The translations under genes were made by a program, and so were the position numbers. The notes under the pieces are model-generated. The model ran no database searches. It worked only from the letters and a program-made list of their open reading frames with translations, and had not been told where the DNA came from. A stretch of DNA of 64,000 bases from Aciduricibacillus chroicocephali (GTDB taxonomy: Bacteria; Bacillota; Bacilli; Bacillales; Amphibacillaceae): the NCBI RefSeq assembly GCF_030762805.1, contig NZ_CP129113.1:1564001-1628000 (forward strand), in the 5' to 3' direction. Positions 48,327-55,478 of this stretch are shown here, piece after piece; the stretch's first letter is position 1; every line of letters begins with the position of its first letter.

Positions 48327-49601
48327 TCAATCGTGTTTCGACAAAATATATTCCCTCACTCGCAAAATGAAGTTCAAGGAACCTGTAATGAACATGCAGC
48401 TTGCTTCTTTTTCTTCTATCATTTCATCAACAACACTGTGCCAATCTGTTTTAAGCTCCAGATTATATTTTTCAGCCAGCTTTTTCTCCTCTTCGATAGA
48501 CAACGCACGAGGGTGGTCAAAAGGGACAAGTACAATATGGTTGAATTCTTCTTTCAACTGTTCGAGCATACTACTGATATCCTTGTCTCGAAACGCACTG
48601 AATACGACTTTTGAAGACTTGCCTTCAGCGAATGCCTTGGCAGTCTTTGTAAAGGAGCGAATGCCATCCGGATTATGTGCTCCGTCCAGAATAATATCCG
48701 GATTAGAGTGAACTTTTTCAAAACGACCAGGCACCGCAGTCTCAGCCAATGCTTTGACCGCTTTCTCCATGTCAATGAGTACTCCTTCTTCATCAAGAAG
48801 CGCAAATCCAGCAATGGCGAGCGAAGCATTATGCATCTGATGTACTCCGCTCATGCCTAGCTTCACATCGTATGATTTGCCGCCGCTTGTCCAGATGAAT
48901 GAATCAGGCCATGTCTTTCGATATTGGAATTCCTCACCAATATGAAAAATTGGAGCAGATTTCCCTGTCGCTTCCTCACGAATAACGGCAAATGCTTCGT
49001 CTTTCATTTCCCCGGCAATAACAGGACGGTTATGTTTAATAATGCCAGCCTTATGTTCGGCGATATCGACAACCGTACTGCCGAGGAATGAGGCATGATC
49101 AATTGAAACATTTGTAATGATTGATAGAATTGGTTCAAAGCAGTTCGTAGTATCAAAGCGACCGCCCATTCCTGTTTCGATAACTGAAATCTCCGCCTGT
49201 TCAGCGAGATGCATAATTGCAAGCACCGTAATGATCTCAAATTCTGTCGGATGCATATCTTGTTCATCGAGCAGTTCAATTGCTGGTAATAGCTGATTCA
49301 GCAAAGAGATAAAAGCTCCTTCACTTATTGGTTCTTTATTAATGTAAATATGTCCGGTAAGACCCGAAAAGCTAGGTGAAGTGAAAAAGCCTGTCTTATA
49401 TCCATTGGCTACAAGTCCGTCAATTAGGAAGCTCGCGGTCGAACCTTTTCCATTCGTACCCGCAACATGCACAGCCTTCATCTTTTTCTCCGGGTTCCCT
49501 GCTTTGTCCAATAATGAATGGATTCGTTCCAGGCCGGGTTTAATCCCAAATTCACTTCGTTTCTTGAAAAACGTCTCAACTTCTATAAAAGTTTTAAACA
49601 T
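48327..49601 (-). CDS. folC: folylpolyglutamate synthase / dihydrofolate synthase
   Basis: 424-residue Mur-ligase-family enzyme adding glutamate to (dihydro)folate. The ATP loop is HVAGTNGKGSTASFL (about residues 45-59), with GMGGRFDTTN (about 145-154) and the C-terminal ILDGAHNPDGIRSF (about 305-318). In B. subtilis it lies just downstream of valS; here the ATP-grasp pair and two hypothetical genes are inserted between valS and folC. Confidence 0.95.
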   Translation of the reverse strand: MFKTFIEVETFFKKRSEFGIKPGLERIHSLLDKAGNPEKKMKAVHVAGTNGKGSTASFLIDGLVANGYKTGFFTSPSFSGLTGHIYINKEPISEGAFISLLNQLLPAIELLDEQDMHPTEFEIITVLAIMHLAEQAEISVIETGMGGRFDTTNCFEPILSIITNVSIDHASFLGSTVVDIAEHKAGIIKHNRPVIAGEMKDEAFAVIREEATGKSAPIFHIGEEFQYRKTWPDSFIWTSGGKSYDVKLGMSGVHQMHNASLAIAGFALLDEEGVLIDMEKAVKALAETAVPGRFEKVHSNPDIILDGAHNPDGIRSFTKTAKAFAEGKSSKVVFSAFRDKDISSMLEQLKEEFNHIVLVPFDHPRALSIEEEKKLAEKYNLELKTDWHSVVDEMIEEKEASCMFITGSLNFILRVREYILSKHD

Positions 49602-49688
49602 GACGCCACCACTTCCGTTTCTTTTCTAGTACAATCAATTATAGAATTCATTTGTGATTGAAGCAATCAGACAGAGAGGACTTAATAG

Positions 49689-50594
49689 ATGACTTATGGT
49701 TGGATCATATATAATGGCTCATTGCCAGGTAATAAATTCCTTGATTTCGCCGAAATGCTGCAAAGAGCGGCGTTGCGTGCGGGAAGCCAAGCTGATATTG
49801 TAAAAAATAACGACTTGCTCGCTGTTACAGACTCAAAAGGCATGGAGTTGCTGAAGCCGAACGGGCTTAACATCCCTGAATATTGTCTTTTTACGGACAA
49901 AGACCTCCATCTTGCACGCCAACTAGAAGCGATGGGTATCTCTGTCTTCAATAGCTCTCATGCAATTGAAGCGAGCGACGATAAAATCGCGACACATCAA
50001 GCACTTGCAAAGAGGAAGATCCCGATGCCACGGACAATTTCTGCTCCAAAAACATTCCTTCAAGATAGTCCGCTTGGGGAAAAGCAACTGCAACTTGCCT
50101 CCAAGGCACTTGGCTTCCCAATGATTGTAAAAGAAGCTTTCGGATCTTTTGGCCAGCAAGTCTACCTTGTAAACGACATGGCTGAACTACAAGAACAAGT
50201 TCAGAAAATTGGCGGCAAACCATTCCTTTTCCAGGAGTTCGTAGAGACAAGCCGCGGCATTGATCTAAGACTACAAGTTGCTGGCGATGAAGTCGTCGCC
50301 TCAGTGAGAAGAACAGCGGTTGATGATTTCCGCGCCAATGTGACGAATGGCGGCAAAATGCATAGCTATGAACCGACTGATGCTGAGTGTGAGCTTGCCA
50401 TTGCTGCAGCGAAAGCGCTCGGATGCGATTTCGCTGGTGTCGACCTGCTTCATGGGGAACTCGGACCAATAGTCTGTGAAGTAAACTCAAATGCACATAT
50501 TCATAATCTAATGGACGCAACCGGAATAGATGCTAGTGATGCCATAGTCCGTGACGTCCTCCGTAAAGTAAAAGACAGGAGGAAACAGTTTTGA
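49689..50594 (+). CDS. RimK-type ATP-grasp ligase, first of a pair
   Basis: 301-residue ATP-grasp protein of the RimK/alpha-L-glutamate ligase type. It begins TYGWIIYNG and has a pre-ATP-grasp region to about residue 95. ATP contacts are MIVKEAFGSFGQQVYLV (K148) and LFQEFVE (about 180-186). A RimK-like segment DLRLQVAGDEVVASVRR runs 192-208, and the Mg ligand motif CEVNSN is at 263-268. Such enzymes join an amino acid, often Glu, to a carboxylate on a protein or small molecule; the substrate here is unknown. GAGAGG precedes ATG. Divergent from folC and coupled to the next gene. Confidence 0.85.
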   Translation: MTYGWIIYNGSLPGNKFLDFAEMLQRAALRAGSQADIVKNNDLLAVTDSKGMELLKPNGLNIPEYCLFTDKDLHLARQLEAMGISVFNSSHAIEASDDKIATHQALAKRKIPMPRTISAPKTFLQDSPLGEKQLQLASKALGFPMIVKEAFGSFGQQVYLVNDMAELQEQVQKIGGKPFLFQEFVETSRGIDLRLQVAGDEVVASVRRTAVDDFRANVTNGGKMHSYEPTDAECELAIAAAKALGCDFAGVDLLHGELGPIVCEVNSNAHIHNLMDATGIDASDAIVRDVLRKVKDRRKQF

Positions 50595-51442
50595 AAACAG
50601 GCTGGATCATTTATCGTAAAGCCGATACACTCGGCAATGAAGGATACATTCAATGGTTTATCGATGAAGCACAAAAACAGGATATCGAATTGAAGTTTGT
50701 AATGCGGGAACAACTATCAGTCGGTATTATCGACAACAAAACGGAAATTCTAAAAAACGGGAAACCGGAAAGACCCGATTTCGCGATTATCCGAACAATT
50801 GAACCGCTGCTTAATTTACACTTTGAGACAGCCGGAATCCCTGCATTCAATTCGTATGAAGTCTCACGTATTGCCAATGACAAGGCACTCGCACACTCTT
50901 ACGTACAGCAGCTCGGTGTCCCAATGAATGATACCCTATTCCTACATACGGATCTTCTTAAACAAACACCGCCACTTGAATTTCCTTTTGTCCTTAAGCA
51001 GACGGGCGGACGCGGCGGTAAGGAAGTGTATTGGATCGGTTCCCAGGACGATTGGACTTCCCTCTTGCCGAAACTTCCACCAGTAAATCTCATCGCCCAA
51101 CGCACGAATGTGCGACATGGTAAAGATTTGCGCGTCTTTGTAGTTGGGGACGAAGTTGTCGGAGCTGTCCTTAGAGAGAGTGACGCCGACTTCCGTGCGA
51201 ACTTCAAGCTCGGCGGGAAAGCAACGTTTTATAATCTAAACGCCAATAATCTAGAACCTGTACAGAAAATCATCGACCGTTTTGATTTTGGAATGGTTGG
51301 AATCGACTTCCTCATTGGAAATGACGGCAAGCTGCTTTTCAATGAAATAGAAGATATTGTTGGGTCACGGACTTTAAGTGTGACGAGCAATATTAACATC
51401 CTGGAGAAGTATGTTGCTTTAATTAGAGAGCGGATTGAATAA
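50591..51442 (+). CDS. RimK-type ATP-grasp ligase, second of a pair
   Basis: 283-residue paralogue of the preceding gene; both begin GWIIY and share layout. ATP-binding FVLKQTGGRGGKEVYW is at 133-148, the RimK-like KDLRVFVVGDEVVGAVLR at 178-195, and the metal-ligand stretch LLFNEIEDIVGS at 248-259. The canonical E-x-N here reads E-I-E, which could alter metal binding or make this the non-standard partner. The start is TTG 50591, overlapping the previous stop (TTGA) and eight bases after AGGAGG, so the two are made together, perhaps as a heteromer. Function unknown. Confidence 0.83.
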   Translation: MKTGWIIYRKADTLGNEGYIQWFIDEAQKQDIELKFVMREQLSVGIIDNKTEILKNGKPERPDFAIIRTIEPLLNLHFETAGIPAFNSYEVSRIANDKALAHSYVQQLGVPMNDTLFLHTDLLKQTPPLEFPFVLKQTGGRGGKEVYWIGSQDDWTSLLPKLPPVNLIAQRTNVRHGKDLRVFVVGDEVVGAVLRESDADFRANFKLGGKATFYNLNANNLEPVQKIIDRFDFGMVGIDFLIGNDGKLLFNEIEDIVGSRTLSVTSNINILEKYVALIRERIE

Positions 51443-51452
51443 TAAAATCAAA

Positions 51453-51488
51453 AAATGACGGAGCATCGTATGCCCCGTCATTTTTCTA
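51453..51488. terminator. terminator after the ATP-grasp pair (possibly bidirectional)
   Basis: AAAATGACGGAGCATC / GTATGCCCCGTCATTTTTCT, a strong hairpin with A-run before and T-run after; it could serve both the plus-strand pair and the converging minus-strand hypothetical gene. Confidence 0.85.
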
Positions 51489-51523
51489 AATATCGGATCA
51501 CTTTATATACTCTATTAACAGCC

Positions 51524-52174
51524 CTAAAAATCACGTTCAAACTCACCGGCAATTAACTTAAAGTGTATGTCATTCGATGTCCCGCCACTGATAGTACGTG
51601 AAATTTTCGATATATCTATCTTTTTTTCCAAATGAATTGTCCTTTTCTCATTCGGTTTTAATGTGACTTTTTCAAGTTTAGGCTCATTCATTAATGACTC
51701 TGTTCGATAAACAGGCTTAAGATCATTATCAAGAAATTGCATTGAAAAGCTCACCGTATGATTGCTGTGATTCCTCAATGTAAGTGTGCACTCACCATTT
51801 AACAGATTCTCTCTAATGCTCTCAAAATGACAACTCCCATCTTTATCGTAGGAAATTGCGAAAATACCAGATGCGACTGTTCCCTGATACAGAGTAATCG
51901 CCACATTCGGCAAAAATAAATATAGGACGAATACAAGGATCACAGTCCTAATACGATGTTTTTTCACCCCAACAGCGAGCAAAACAAAACTTATAATAAA
52001 TAAAGCTGAACAAAAAATACCAGATAACACATACCCGTTCTGATCCTGTATCGGAAAATTCATAAACGTCGCTTGTGCCCTTAGCAATGGATTATTTGGA
52101 AATGGAAAGAAAGAATAAAGACAAATTCCTAAAAAAACAAACGAGCTAATAATGGCTAACTTGCTTCTAATCAA
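51524..52174 (-). CDS. hypothetical membrane protein
   Basis: 216-residue protein not recognised. Three hydrophobic segments (about residues 5-25, 48-70, 78-100) are followed by an outside domain of about 115 residues with short beta-like stretches (NGECTLTLRNHSNHTVSFSMQF, split; VTLKPNEKRTIHLEKK) resembling a small immunoglobulin-like fold. The start is TTG 52174 nine bases after GGAGG. Visibly more AT-rich than flanking core genes. It follows the next hypothetical gene by 21 bases, so they are probably one operon. Confidence 0.7.
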   Translation of the reverse strand: MIRSKLAIISSFVFLGICLYSFFPFPNNPLLRAQATFMNFPIQDQNGYVLSGIFCSALFIISFVLLAVGVKKHRIRTVILVFVLYLFLPNVAITLYQGTVASGIFAISYDKDGSCHFESIRENLLNGECTLTLRNHSNHTVSFSMQFLDNDLKPVYRTESLMNEPKLEKVTLKPNEKRTIHLEKKIDISKISRTISGGTSNDIHFKLIAGEFERDF

Positions 52175-52195
52175 AAATCTTATCCTCCCAACATA

Positions 52196-52729
52196 TCATC
52201 TATCTTTATATATGAAACGGTTCCCCATATACTTCTTACTGCTAAGGACGTCTTCCATAATAGCCAATGCCTTATAAGGTTCCTTATAAACATTAATAGA
52301 ACCTGCCTCAGCATCATATCCTTTTTTAAAATTAAGGATATCTTTTAAAACCTGGTTTGATTCCTCTTCACCATTTTGTTTAATTTTATTTCGAATATCT
52401 ACGAATACACCTCCATTCCAGGAGACAAGGTTTTCCGGCACTTCGCTAATATAGGCATTTAACCGTCCCTCATTCTCTGACATATAGTTGCTTGCATCCC
52501 AAAGAAGGTGCTCGTTCTTCCCTCCCTCCGTCTCATATTTTTTCGTAATCTCCTCTTCTTCAAATTCTTTCAAAAGCCTTGCTGTCTCATTGAGATTAAA
52601 CAAAAATTTTTCCACATCAATTCCTACTTCTATTCTTTTCTGTTGTTTGTCATGGATGAAGTGATACAAATTCAAACCCAGAGAAATAATTAAAATAAAA
52701 ATAAGCCTTTTCCGAGAAACCTTCTTCAT
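52196..52729 (-). CDS. hypothetical membrane-anchored protein
   Basis: 177-residue protein not recognised. An N-terminal basic segment and one hydrophobic helix (KRLIFILIISLGLNLYHFI, about residues 7-25) are followed by a helical, Lys/Glu-rich soluble domain with LLKEFEEEEITKKYE and a W-rich middle (LVSWNGGVFVDIRNKI). The AT-rich base use suggests acquisition relative to valS and folC neighbours. ATG 52729 follows GGTGAATC. Probably cotranscribed with the preceding membrane protein. No function is proposed. Confidence 0.7.
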   Translation of the reverse strand: MKKVSRKRLIFILIISLGLNLYHFIHDKQQKRIEVGIDVEKFLFNLNETARLLKEFEEEEITKKYETEGGKNEHLLWDASNYMSENEGRLNAYISEVPENLVSWNGGVFVDIRNKIKQNGEEESNQVLKDILNFKKGYDAEAGSINVYKEPYKALAIMEDVLSSKKYMGNRFIYKDR

Positions 52730-52838: not shown

Positions 52839-55478
52839 TTATTTCAATTCTTCCAAGCGTGCTTTTACTTTCGCCTGCTTTTCAAGATAATCTTTTTCTT
52901 TTTGTTTTTCTTCCTCAACAACCTTCTCAGGAGCTTTTGCGATGAAGCCCTGGTTGCCGAGTTTCTTCTGGACACGTTCTACTTCTTTCGTCCATTTCTC
53001 AAGTTCTTTCTCAAGACGAGCAATCTCTTTATCGAAATCAATCAGTCCTTCAAGCGGCAAGAACAATTCAGCACCTGTCACGACAGCGGACATCGCTTTA
53101 GCAGGAGCGTCGACAGCTTCGGCAATTTCCAGTTCACTCGTATTACAGAAGCGTTCAAGATAACTACGTTCGCTGTTTAGCTCATCAACGATTGTCGCGT
53201 TCTCAGCTTGGATCATCAGCTTGATCTGCTTGGACATTGGTGTATCCACTTCAGAGCGGATATTACGGATTGCCTTGATAATTGAAGTAAGACGTTCCAT
53301 TTCCGTAACTGCTTGATCATCCTGGAATTCAGGGTTCACTTTTGGCCATTCAGCTACCGTAATAGATTCGCCCTGATGCGGAAGCTGCTGCCAAATTTCC
53401 TCTGTGATGAACGGCATGAACGGATGCAACATGCGCATTGTCTGATCCAATGTATGAGCTAGAACAGAACGAGTCATTTTCTTTGCCTTCTCATCGTCAC
53501 CGTAAAGTGGCAATTTCGCCATCTCGATATACCAGTCACACAAGTCATCCCAGATGAAGTTGTACAAATGGCGGCCTGCTTCACCGAATTCATATTTATC
53601 CGTGTTGCGTGTCACTTGCTCAATTGTTTCATTCAAGCGTGTAAGAATCCATTTGTCAGCAAGTGATTTCTCACCGGAAAGATCAATGTCTTCATATGTG
53701 AAACCTTCCATGTTCATAAGTGAGAAGCGTGATGCGTTCCACACTTTGTTGGCGAAGTTCCATGTTGATTCAACTTTTTCCCAATGGAAGCGTAAATCCT
53801 GACCCGGTGTTGAACCTGTAAGCAGGAAGTAACGCAATGAATCAGCACCATACTTCTCAATGACATCCATCGGGTCGACACCATTTCCAAGGGACTTGGA
53901 CATTTTGCGTCCTTCTGCATCACGGATAAGACCATGAATCAGAACATCTTTGAAAGGACGCTCGCCAGTGAATTGCTTGGACTGGAAGATCATGCGTGAA
54001 ACCCAGAAGAAGATAATGTCATAACCTGTTACGAGTACATCTGTCGGGAAGTAGCGCTTGAAGTCCGGTGCTTCTTCATCCGGCCAGCCCATTGTTGAAA
54101 ACGGCCAAAGTGCGGAAGAGAACCATGTGTCAAGAACATCTTCATCTTGCTTCCAGTTCTCGGCATCAGCTGGTGCTTCCATGCCTACATGGATCTCACC
54201 TGTTTCCTTATGATACCAAGCCGGAATGCGGTGCCCCCACCAAAGCTGACGGGAAATACACCAGTCACGGATATTCTCCATCCAGCGCAAATACGTCTTC
54301 TCAAAACGATCTGGCACGAAGTTCACTTTGCCTTCCGACTGCTGCATTGCTACAGCTTCGTCAGCAAGCGGCTGCATGTTTACGAACCACTGTGTTGAAA
54401 GATAAGGCTCAACGACTGCACCACTGCGTTCTGAATGACCAACTTGATGGACGTGATCTTCAATTTCAAACAGAACGTTCATATCTTGCAAGTCTTTTAT
54501 GATTTGCTTACGGCATTCGAAACGGTCCAGTCCTTCGTACTTGCCAGCACGTGCGTTCATTGTGCCATCTTCATTCATAACAAGAATGCGCTCAAGATTG
54601 TGTCGATTACCAATTTCAAAGTCATTCGGGTCATGTGCAGGTGTAATCTTAACCGCTCCGGAACCAAATTCCATATCGACATAATCATCTGCAACAATCT
54701 CAATCTCACGGCCGACGATTGGCAAAATTACCTTTTTGCCGATGAGGTGCTTGTAGCGCTCGTCTTCAGGATGAACGGCAACAGCAGTATCTCCAAGCAT
54801 TGTCTCTGGTCGAGTCGTTGCAATTTCAATTGTTTCATCAGAATCTTTGATTGGATAGCGCAAATGGTAGAACTTGCCCTGCACTTCTTCATAGATAACT
54901 TCAATATCAGAGAGTGCTGTTTTCGTAGCCGGATCCCAGTTAATGATGTATTCACCGCGGTAGATAAGTCCTTTTTCATAAAGGGTTACGAATACTTTGC
55001 GTACCGCTTCAGAAAGACCTTCATCCATTGTGAAACGCTCACGTGAATAGTCGAGGCCAAGGCCCATCTTCTCCCATTGCTTGCGGATGAATCCTGCATA
55101 CTCTTCTTTCCATTCCCAAACAGTATCAAGGAACTTCTCGCGCCCAAGGTCGTAGCGGCTCTTGCCTTCTTCGCGTAGTTTTGCCTCAACTTTTGCCTGT
55201 GTCGCAATACCGGCATGGTCCATTCCCGGAAGCCAGAGGACGTCGTAGCCCTGCATACGCTTCATACGTGAAATCGTATCTTGCATTGTCGTATCCCAGG
55301 CATGTCCCAAATGGAGCTTTCCTGTAACGTTCGGCGGCGGAATGACAATTGTGAACGGTTCTTTGTCAAGATCCTGCCCTGCTTCAAAGAACTTGCCATC
55401 TAGCCAGAATTGATAACGGTTTTCTTCAACTTCCCCCGGATTGTACTTCGGAGGCAGTGATGTCTGTTTTTCTTCCAT
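52839..55478 (-). CDS. valS: valyl-tRNA synthetase
   Basis: 879-residue class I ValRS. HIGH motif region [14 protein letters not shown] (about residues 49-62), CP1 editing domain at about 190-340, KMSKS in [14 protein letters not shown] (about 525), anticodon-binding domain, and the C-terminal coiled-coil arm ([20 protein letters not shown]) that grips the tRNA elbow. Length is normal. A T-box leader precedes it. Confidence 0.97.

Follow-up and report, generated by a model that had tools for sequence, protein, structure and literature searches.

Organization of the Locus

The window, a stretch of 64,000 nucleotides from Aciduricibacillus chroicocephali (contig NZ_CP129113.1), contained two ATP-grasp genes on the forward strand, here called P1 and P2. 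P1 (49689..50594) encoded a RimK-fold ATP-grasp ligase of 301 aa, and P2 (50591..51442) encoded a second RimK-fold ATP-grasp protein of 283 aa from a TTG start; both assignments were based on the ORF, profile matches, and a predicted structure. The two ORFs were intact and complete and overlapped by the four bases TTGA (50591..50594), in which TGA is the stop of P1 and TTG is the start of P2. A Shine-Dalgarno-like AGAGAGG (49673..49679, + strand) was located 9 nt 5' of the ATG of P1. AGGAGG (50577..50582, + strand), within the 3' end of P1, was located 8 nt 5' of the TTG of P2. The re-reading of the sequence agreed with the original prediction on the coordinates of both genes, on the overlap, and on a ribosome site for each gene.

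The closing terminator of the original prediction corresponded to a strong hairpin at 51451..51485, between two converging units. Its folding energy was −17.7 kcal/mol on the + strand (z −7.0; 0/200 shuffles equal) and −23.9 kcal/mol on the − strand (z −7.2). The T-run of the + strand sat inside the 3' arm, and a consensus terminator scan, whose count of two sites was at the level of shuffled sequence (mean 2.5), called the hairpin on the − strand only. The hairpin is probably a bidirectional terminator shared by the two units. A consensus scan for promoter-like sites found none on the + strand.

The flanking genes are context outside the module. The divergent folC (48327..49601, − strand) had Mur-ligase domains by Pfam, and its name was taken from the original prediction and synteny; valS (52839..55478, − strand) lay downstream. 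The pair had been described as inserted between folC and valS. These flanks were correct, but two small ORFs on the − strand (51524-52174 and 52196-52729), without Pfam match, also lay between P2 and valS.

Identity of the Two Proteins

Both proteins passed the gathering cut-off (21) of Pfam PF08443 (RimK-like ATP-grasp), P1 with 132.2 bits and P2 with 76.3 bits; the genome of the window had four matches to this model, two of which were the pair. The NCBIfam subfamily model TIGR00768 (RimK-family alpha-L-glutamate ligase, cut-off 143.4) was passed by P1 (197.7 bits), and P2 was below it (119.7 bits). No equivalog cut-off was passed by P1 among the best 25 of 40 families or by P2 among 25 of 25 families. 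For the S6 ligase RimK (NF007764, equivalog 331), the scores were 104.7 for P1 and 40.6 for P2, and for LysX/ArgX (TIGR02144, equivalog 275.6), they were 145 and 75. MptN and CofF carry out RimK-subfamily chemistry on a small-molecule glutamyl tail. Against MptN, CofF, and GAK ATP-grasp (cut-offs 350, 300, and 300), P1 scored 108.6, 73.3, and 69.5 bits, and P2 scored 48.9, 28.2, and 19.8 bits, all below. A characterised homologue, which would have supplied a known substrate, was not found above any of the equivalog cut-offs listed.

Neither protein matched the R2K models, which we take to be included in Pfam. The graspetide ligase models MvdD and GRASP scored 12.7 (cut-off 475) and 13.2 (cut-off 350) for P2 and were absent among the best 25 of 40 families matched by P1. 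Small + strand ORFs at 49000-52200 were viewed by eye for a graspetide precursor, and none was striking. A mobile-element or defence role was rejected: PADLOC gave no defence match for P1, P2, or an RNase H-P1 fusion (locus L086, described below), and a search of known plasmids with P2 found nothing.

The AlphaFold models had pLDDT values of 94.6 (P1) and 95.1 (P2). Among solved structures, P1 was nearest to RimK 5zct (27% identity) and P2 to ArgX 3vpb (21% identity). Both proteins had the GWIIY start, as predicted; the identity between them was 27–28%.

Catalytic Residues

Residues were compared in a MAFFT alignment of 37 P1s and 36 P2s with RimK numbering. RimK K100, K141, D187, R189, R203, N213, D248, and E260 were conserved in 37/37 P1s and 36/36 P2s. 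The ATP-site lysines K100/K141 corresponded to K99/K148 of P1 and K98/K136 of P2, so the ATP-binding lysines claimed for both proteins were present. D248 and E260 are metal ligands.

The position of RimK N262 was Asn in all 37 aligned P1s and Glu in all 36 aligned P2s. The E-V-N and E-I-E motifs noticed in the window pair are hence not a local peculiarity. P1 had CEVN and a canonical metal site (D252/E264/N266). P2 had NEIE, in which E-I-E (E252, E254) replaces E-x-N, within the signature NEIED..GSR; NEIED occurred in all 41 P2s displayed. Across the 36 P2 sequences, down to 31% identity, 25 columns were invariant, including both lysines, D239, E252, E254, and R195.

In P. aeruginosa RimK, N262 and R189 touch the final glutamate resolved in the bound chain, R64 touches another glutamate, and E178 contacts ADP (PMC10092738). 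P2 had Glu at this glutamate-contacting N262. R68 of P2 (36/36) paired with R64 in a profile alignment, and its equivalence is less sure because the MAFFT alignment shifts it. P1 had W, T, or others in the R64 region, followed by D70-K71-D72, invariant in the 37 aligned P1s. P1 and P2 seem to have pockets unlike each other's and unlike that of RimK, which fits two different substrates. RimK E178 was absent in 35/36 P2s (S, R, K, or others instead). This loss argues against an ordinary active site, and P2 could be a regulator or a pseudo-ligase; the position tolerates change, however, since it was E in only 24/37 P1s.

Distribution and Linkage of the Pair

The family sample consisted of 159 genomes (Virgibacillus, Oceanobacillus, Gracilibacillus, and relatives) of what we take to be the Amphibacillaceae. 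The P2 query matched 148 of them at 1e-10. By a tally made by eye, 114/159 genomes had a P2-grade match (below 1e-40; one of these frame-split), 34 had a P1-grade score only, and 11 had neither. A second match was listed in 113 of the 114 P2-grade genomes, and the remaining one, the draft genome G021, had a P1 in broken frames beside an intact P2 (L158:5654-6498). The frame-split P2, in two reading frames, was that of G055 (L104:6726-7585). Decay or sequencing error may account for either case. Five of the 34 P1-only genomes were read, and four of these P1 genes sat at the folC-valS site; P1 in the other 29 was assumed from the score.

In a phylum sample of 398 genomes, the sole P2-grade match was the window's own genome, and the three further matches were solo RimK-like genes with E-x-N. 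A class sample (presumably Clostridia) comprised 391 genomes around a Lachnospiraceae locus, L046. P2 was found in 17/391 genomes, with P1 adjacent in 17/17 (16 new loci and L046). An eighteenth pair, in G900, had a P2 cut by the contig end and adjoining an RNase H-P1 fusion. The P1 query found 31 genomes in this sample: the 17 pairs, G900, and 13 with solo, more divergent P1-like genes. The solo genes had other contexts: in L148, L151, and L152 the gene ended a row of like-sized genes, and in L151, the one of these three that was scanned, the row consisted of genes for type III pantothenate kinase and for homoserine dehydrogenase. P2 without any P1 sequence was not found among the 159 family and 391 class genomes.

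Spacing was measured in 64 distinct loci of 70, leaving out four duplicates, L104 (frame-split P2), and L107 (P1 only). P1 and P2 overlapped in 28 loci, were 0–30 nt apart in 28, 31–300 nt apart in four, and 4–6 kb apart in four, so that P1 was within 300 bp of P2 in 60/64 loci. The exact four-base overlap occurred in 17/64 loci, the window locus included. The four wide spacings were all in Gracilibacillus (two by name and two by genus code). In Gracilibacillus loci (L043, L044, L106, L108, and L109), germination-receptor genes lay between P1 and P2; L043 and L109 gave Pfam GerA scores. Genes of similar sizes were seen upstream of an adjacent pair in L101.

Many genomes related to that of the host, and some Clostridia, keep P1 and P2 together. 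The original prediction had called for a search for conserved pairing; pairing was found far beyond the genome of the window, and the two genes were not found to be usually unlinked.

Genomic Neighbours

No constant partner gene beyond P1 and P2 was found among the selected neighbours scanned across loci, in agreement with the original view that no neighbour reveals a substrate. The folC-valS location was a feature of the family, and neighbours elsewhere varied. Single loci had LysM/YlxM/SRP genes (L082), a UPRTase gene (L092), rubrerythrin/sortase genes (L042), or a mannosylglycerate-hydrolase-like gene below its cut-off (L045). Genes for a VTC-domain (polyphosphate polymerase-like) protein and DUF4956 followed the pair at L089:8845-10285, with cluster relatives in L091 and L094. 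Of arginine and lysine genes, the neighbours scanned included just argG, which L045 carries on the opposite strand.

An RNase H-domain protein occurred with P1 in 5/18 class-sample pairs, and the Pfam RNase H domain was over the cut-off in 5/5. It was encoded adjacent to P1 in two loci (L084:9744-10481 and L085:5765-6517) and made up the N-terminal part of a fusion with P1 in three (L086:8907-10595, L087:8878-10665, and L144:473-2245). The first hundred or so residues of the RNase H-domain protein had no Pfam match. No RNase H neighbour was found in the clustered flanking stretches of the Clostridial pairs L042, L045, and L046, the last of which is also in the class sample. A 219-aa protein just 5' of P1 in L085 (6526-7185) was N-formylglutamate amidohydrolase-like by eye and had no Pfam match.

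A folate link was also considered. Alpha-linked folate glutamates exist, folC lies beside P1, and a formate-tetrahydrofolate ligase gene was located 3' of P2 in L046 and L093. This link was weak: no relative of that ligase gene was found in the clustered stretches of 15/17 class-sample pairs or in those of L042 and L045.

Evolutionary History

In the tree, P1 and P2 formed separate deep clades with supports of 99/99 and 100/99, which rules out a recent tandem duplication. The original prediction called the genes paralogous; with 27–28% identity and two deep clades, the term would hold only broadly, not for close or recent duplicates. On one side of a branch supported at 97/89 were P1, E. coli RimK, and three solo RimK-like proteins, and on the other were P2 and ArgX; the ArgX and E. 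coli RimK rows had long branches, which make the outgroup placement unsure.

The divergence of P1 correlated with that of P2 (r 0.76, 30 loci; 0/5000 permutations as high), and shared ancestry gives part of this correlation. L084–L087 had common chromosomal neighbours. In L084 and L085, both P1 and P2 fell within Clostridial clades. The P1 of L086/L087 grouped with the window-family locus L096 (100/96), and the P2 of L086/L087 was on the window-family side (95/81), where L103 was weakly the nearest (89/47). The pair seems to have moved or been exchanged as one unit in L086/L087, because both genes lie on the window-family side of the tree despite the chromosomal neighbours of L084/L085.

Comparison with Known Systems

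The kind of arrangement is already known: linked pairs of ATP-grasp ligases have been described, such as R2K.2/R2K.3 in firmicutes, which are operon-linked, distinct ATP-grasp peptide ligases with a proposed sequential action (PMC4431377). Like these, P1 and P2 are two distinct ATP-grasp ligases together. The R2K pairs belong to other ATP-grasp clades, whereas P1 and P2 match Pfam RimK and no R2K model.

RimK, the S6/poly-alpha-glutamate ligase (5zct, 4iwx, 7qyr), shares with P1 and P2 the fold, the ATP-site lysines, and D248/E260. P1 departs from it in its score and in D-K-D by the R64 region, and P2 departs from it in the Glu at N262. LysX/ArgX with the carrier LysW (3vpb, 5k2m, 3vpd) includes the nearest structure to P2 and shares with P2 the signature NE-x-x-D, which reads NELND in ArgX and NEIED in P2; the P2 score is far from the LysX/ArgX cut-off (75 against 275.6). 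Among titles and abstract openings, in a search whose coverage excluded most subscription papers, no publication was found on a RimK-type pair whose second enzyme has E-x-E as a fixed feature.

Proposed Function

ATP-grasp ligases form an acyl phosphate, which is then coupled to an amine. In the reading that we favour, P1 and P2 may constitute a small stand-alone two-step amide-ligase module, in which P1 acts first and P2 second; we give it a probability of about 45%. P1 would activate the carboxylate of an acceptor as an acyl phosphate and couple an amino acid onto the acceptor. P2, an anciently separate RimK/ArgX-like protein with Glu for Asn at the metal/substrate site, would add a second, different residue to the product of P1. 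Translational coupling would keep P1 and P2 in step. We infer that P2 is catalytic, that P1 precedes it, and that some cell component with its gene elsewhere serves as the acceptor. P2 was not found without P1, yet P1 alone occurs, which fits P1 acting first and P2 acting on its product, an order drawn solely from presence and absence. Where P1 is alone, it could just as well work with another partner or have a function of its own. Since the acceptor is unlinked, a housekeeping metabolite or protein may fill this role.

A related reading, overlapping the two-step module and differing by naming the acceptor as a protein, is RimK/ArgX-type tagging, in which glutamate(s) or Glu-like residues would be added to the C-terminus or a side chain of a protein encoded elsewhere. 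P1 scores above the cut-off of the RimK-family alpha-L-glutamate ligase model (197.7 against 143.4 bits), the nearest structures are the protein-modifying RimK and ArgX, and no constant metabolic neighbour occurred among those scanned. This reading is possible but somewhat doubtful: no LysW-like C-terminus (EDWGE-like, which we take to be the LysW-type motif) was found in 158 records (1.18 Mb, window and loci), and P1 has W, T, or others and the invariant D-K-D in place of the region of RimK's glutamate-contacting R64.

The original prediction proposed a heteromeric or two-step ligation. Pairing, the correlated divergence, and the fixed Asn-to-Glu change of P2 are in favour of this general proposal, and its obligate heteromeric form is weakened by the P1-alone genomes. 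In a heteromeric ligase, P1 would ligate and P2 would shape the pocket or regulate within a mixed dimer or tetramer. The tight translational coupling in most measured loci and the correlated divergence would suit such a complex, as would the departure of P2 from RimK at N262 and E178. RimK homologues form tetramers whose active sites face a channel at the centre (PMC10092738). This arrangement is nevertheless unlikely. P1 was alone, by score, in 34/159 family genomes, and four of the five that were read had it at the usual folC-valS site; this favours a two-step scheme, with P2 dependent on P1, over an obligate heteromer. P2 also retains its other catalytic residues invariant, and the Gracilibacillus P1 and P2 are 4–6 kb apart.

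A role in spores or germination, with P1 and P2 acting on the coat, the cortex, or a dormancy metabolite in the manner of YheC/YheD, the endospore ATP-grasp proteins of B. subtilis, is improbable. SpoIVA was present in 111/114 P2-positive family genomes and in 16/19 P2-positive Clostridial genomes searched, GerA-type germination genes lay between P1 and P2 in Gracilibacillus, and a SpoIID gene lay near the pair in L084, with cluster relatives in L085–L087. The background was equally high, however. SpoIVA was over the cut-off in 14/17 P2-positive class-sample genomes against 275/391 overall (Fisher p 0.42), and P2 was found in 111/153 SpoIVA-positive and 3/6 SpoIVA-negative family genomes (p 0.35). 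The association, which bears on the spore coat context suggested in the original prediction, was non-significant in both samples, and Pfam YheC/YheD matched neither protein at E up to 1.

That P2 is a non-catalytic relic or pseudo-ligase retained by linkage is very improbable: it has two changes at nucleotide/metal contacts (N262 to E; E178 to S, R, or K) and is split into two frames in one family genome (L104), but Glu is fixed in 36/36 sequences, as would not be expected under decay, and 25 columns are invariant among these sequences, some as low as 31% in identity.

Significance

As a bolder extension of the two-step reading, which we regard as rather speculative, P2 would found a new ATP-grasp class with an E-x-E metal/substrate site that acts only downstream of P1. 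The two enzymes would jointly make a two-residue amide modification in Bacillota, and the RNase H link would mean a nucleic-acid-bound acceptor or one from RNA metabolism. The P1-RNase H fusion is a rare handle on the acceptor, and the fixed Asn-to-Glu change in an ATP-grasp metal-binding motif is directly testable. The module occurs in 114/159 family genomes and in scattered Clostridia with no pathway linked to it, which suggests that a pair of residues is added to a cell component or a small metabolite.
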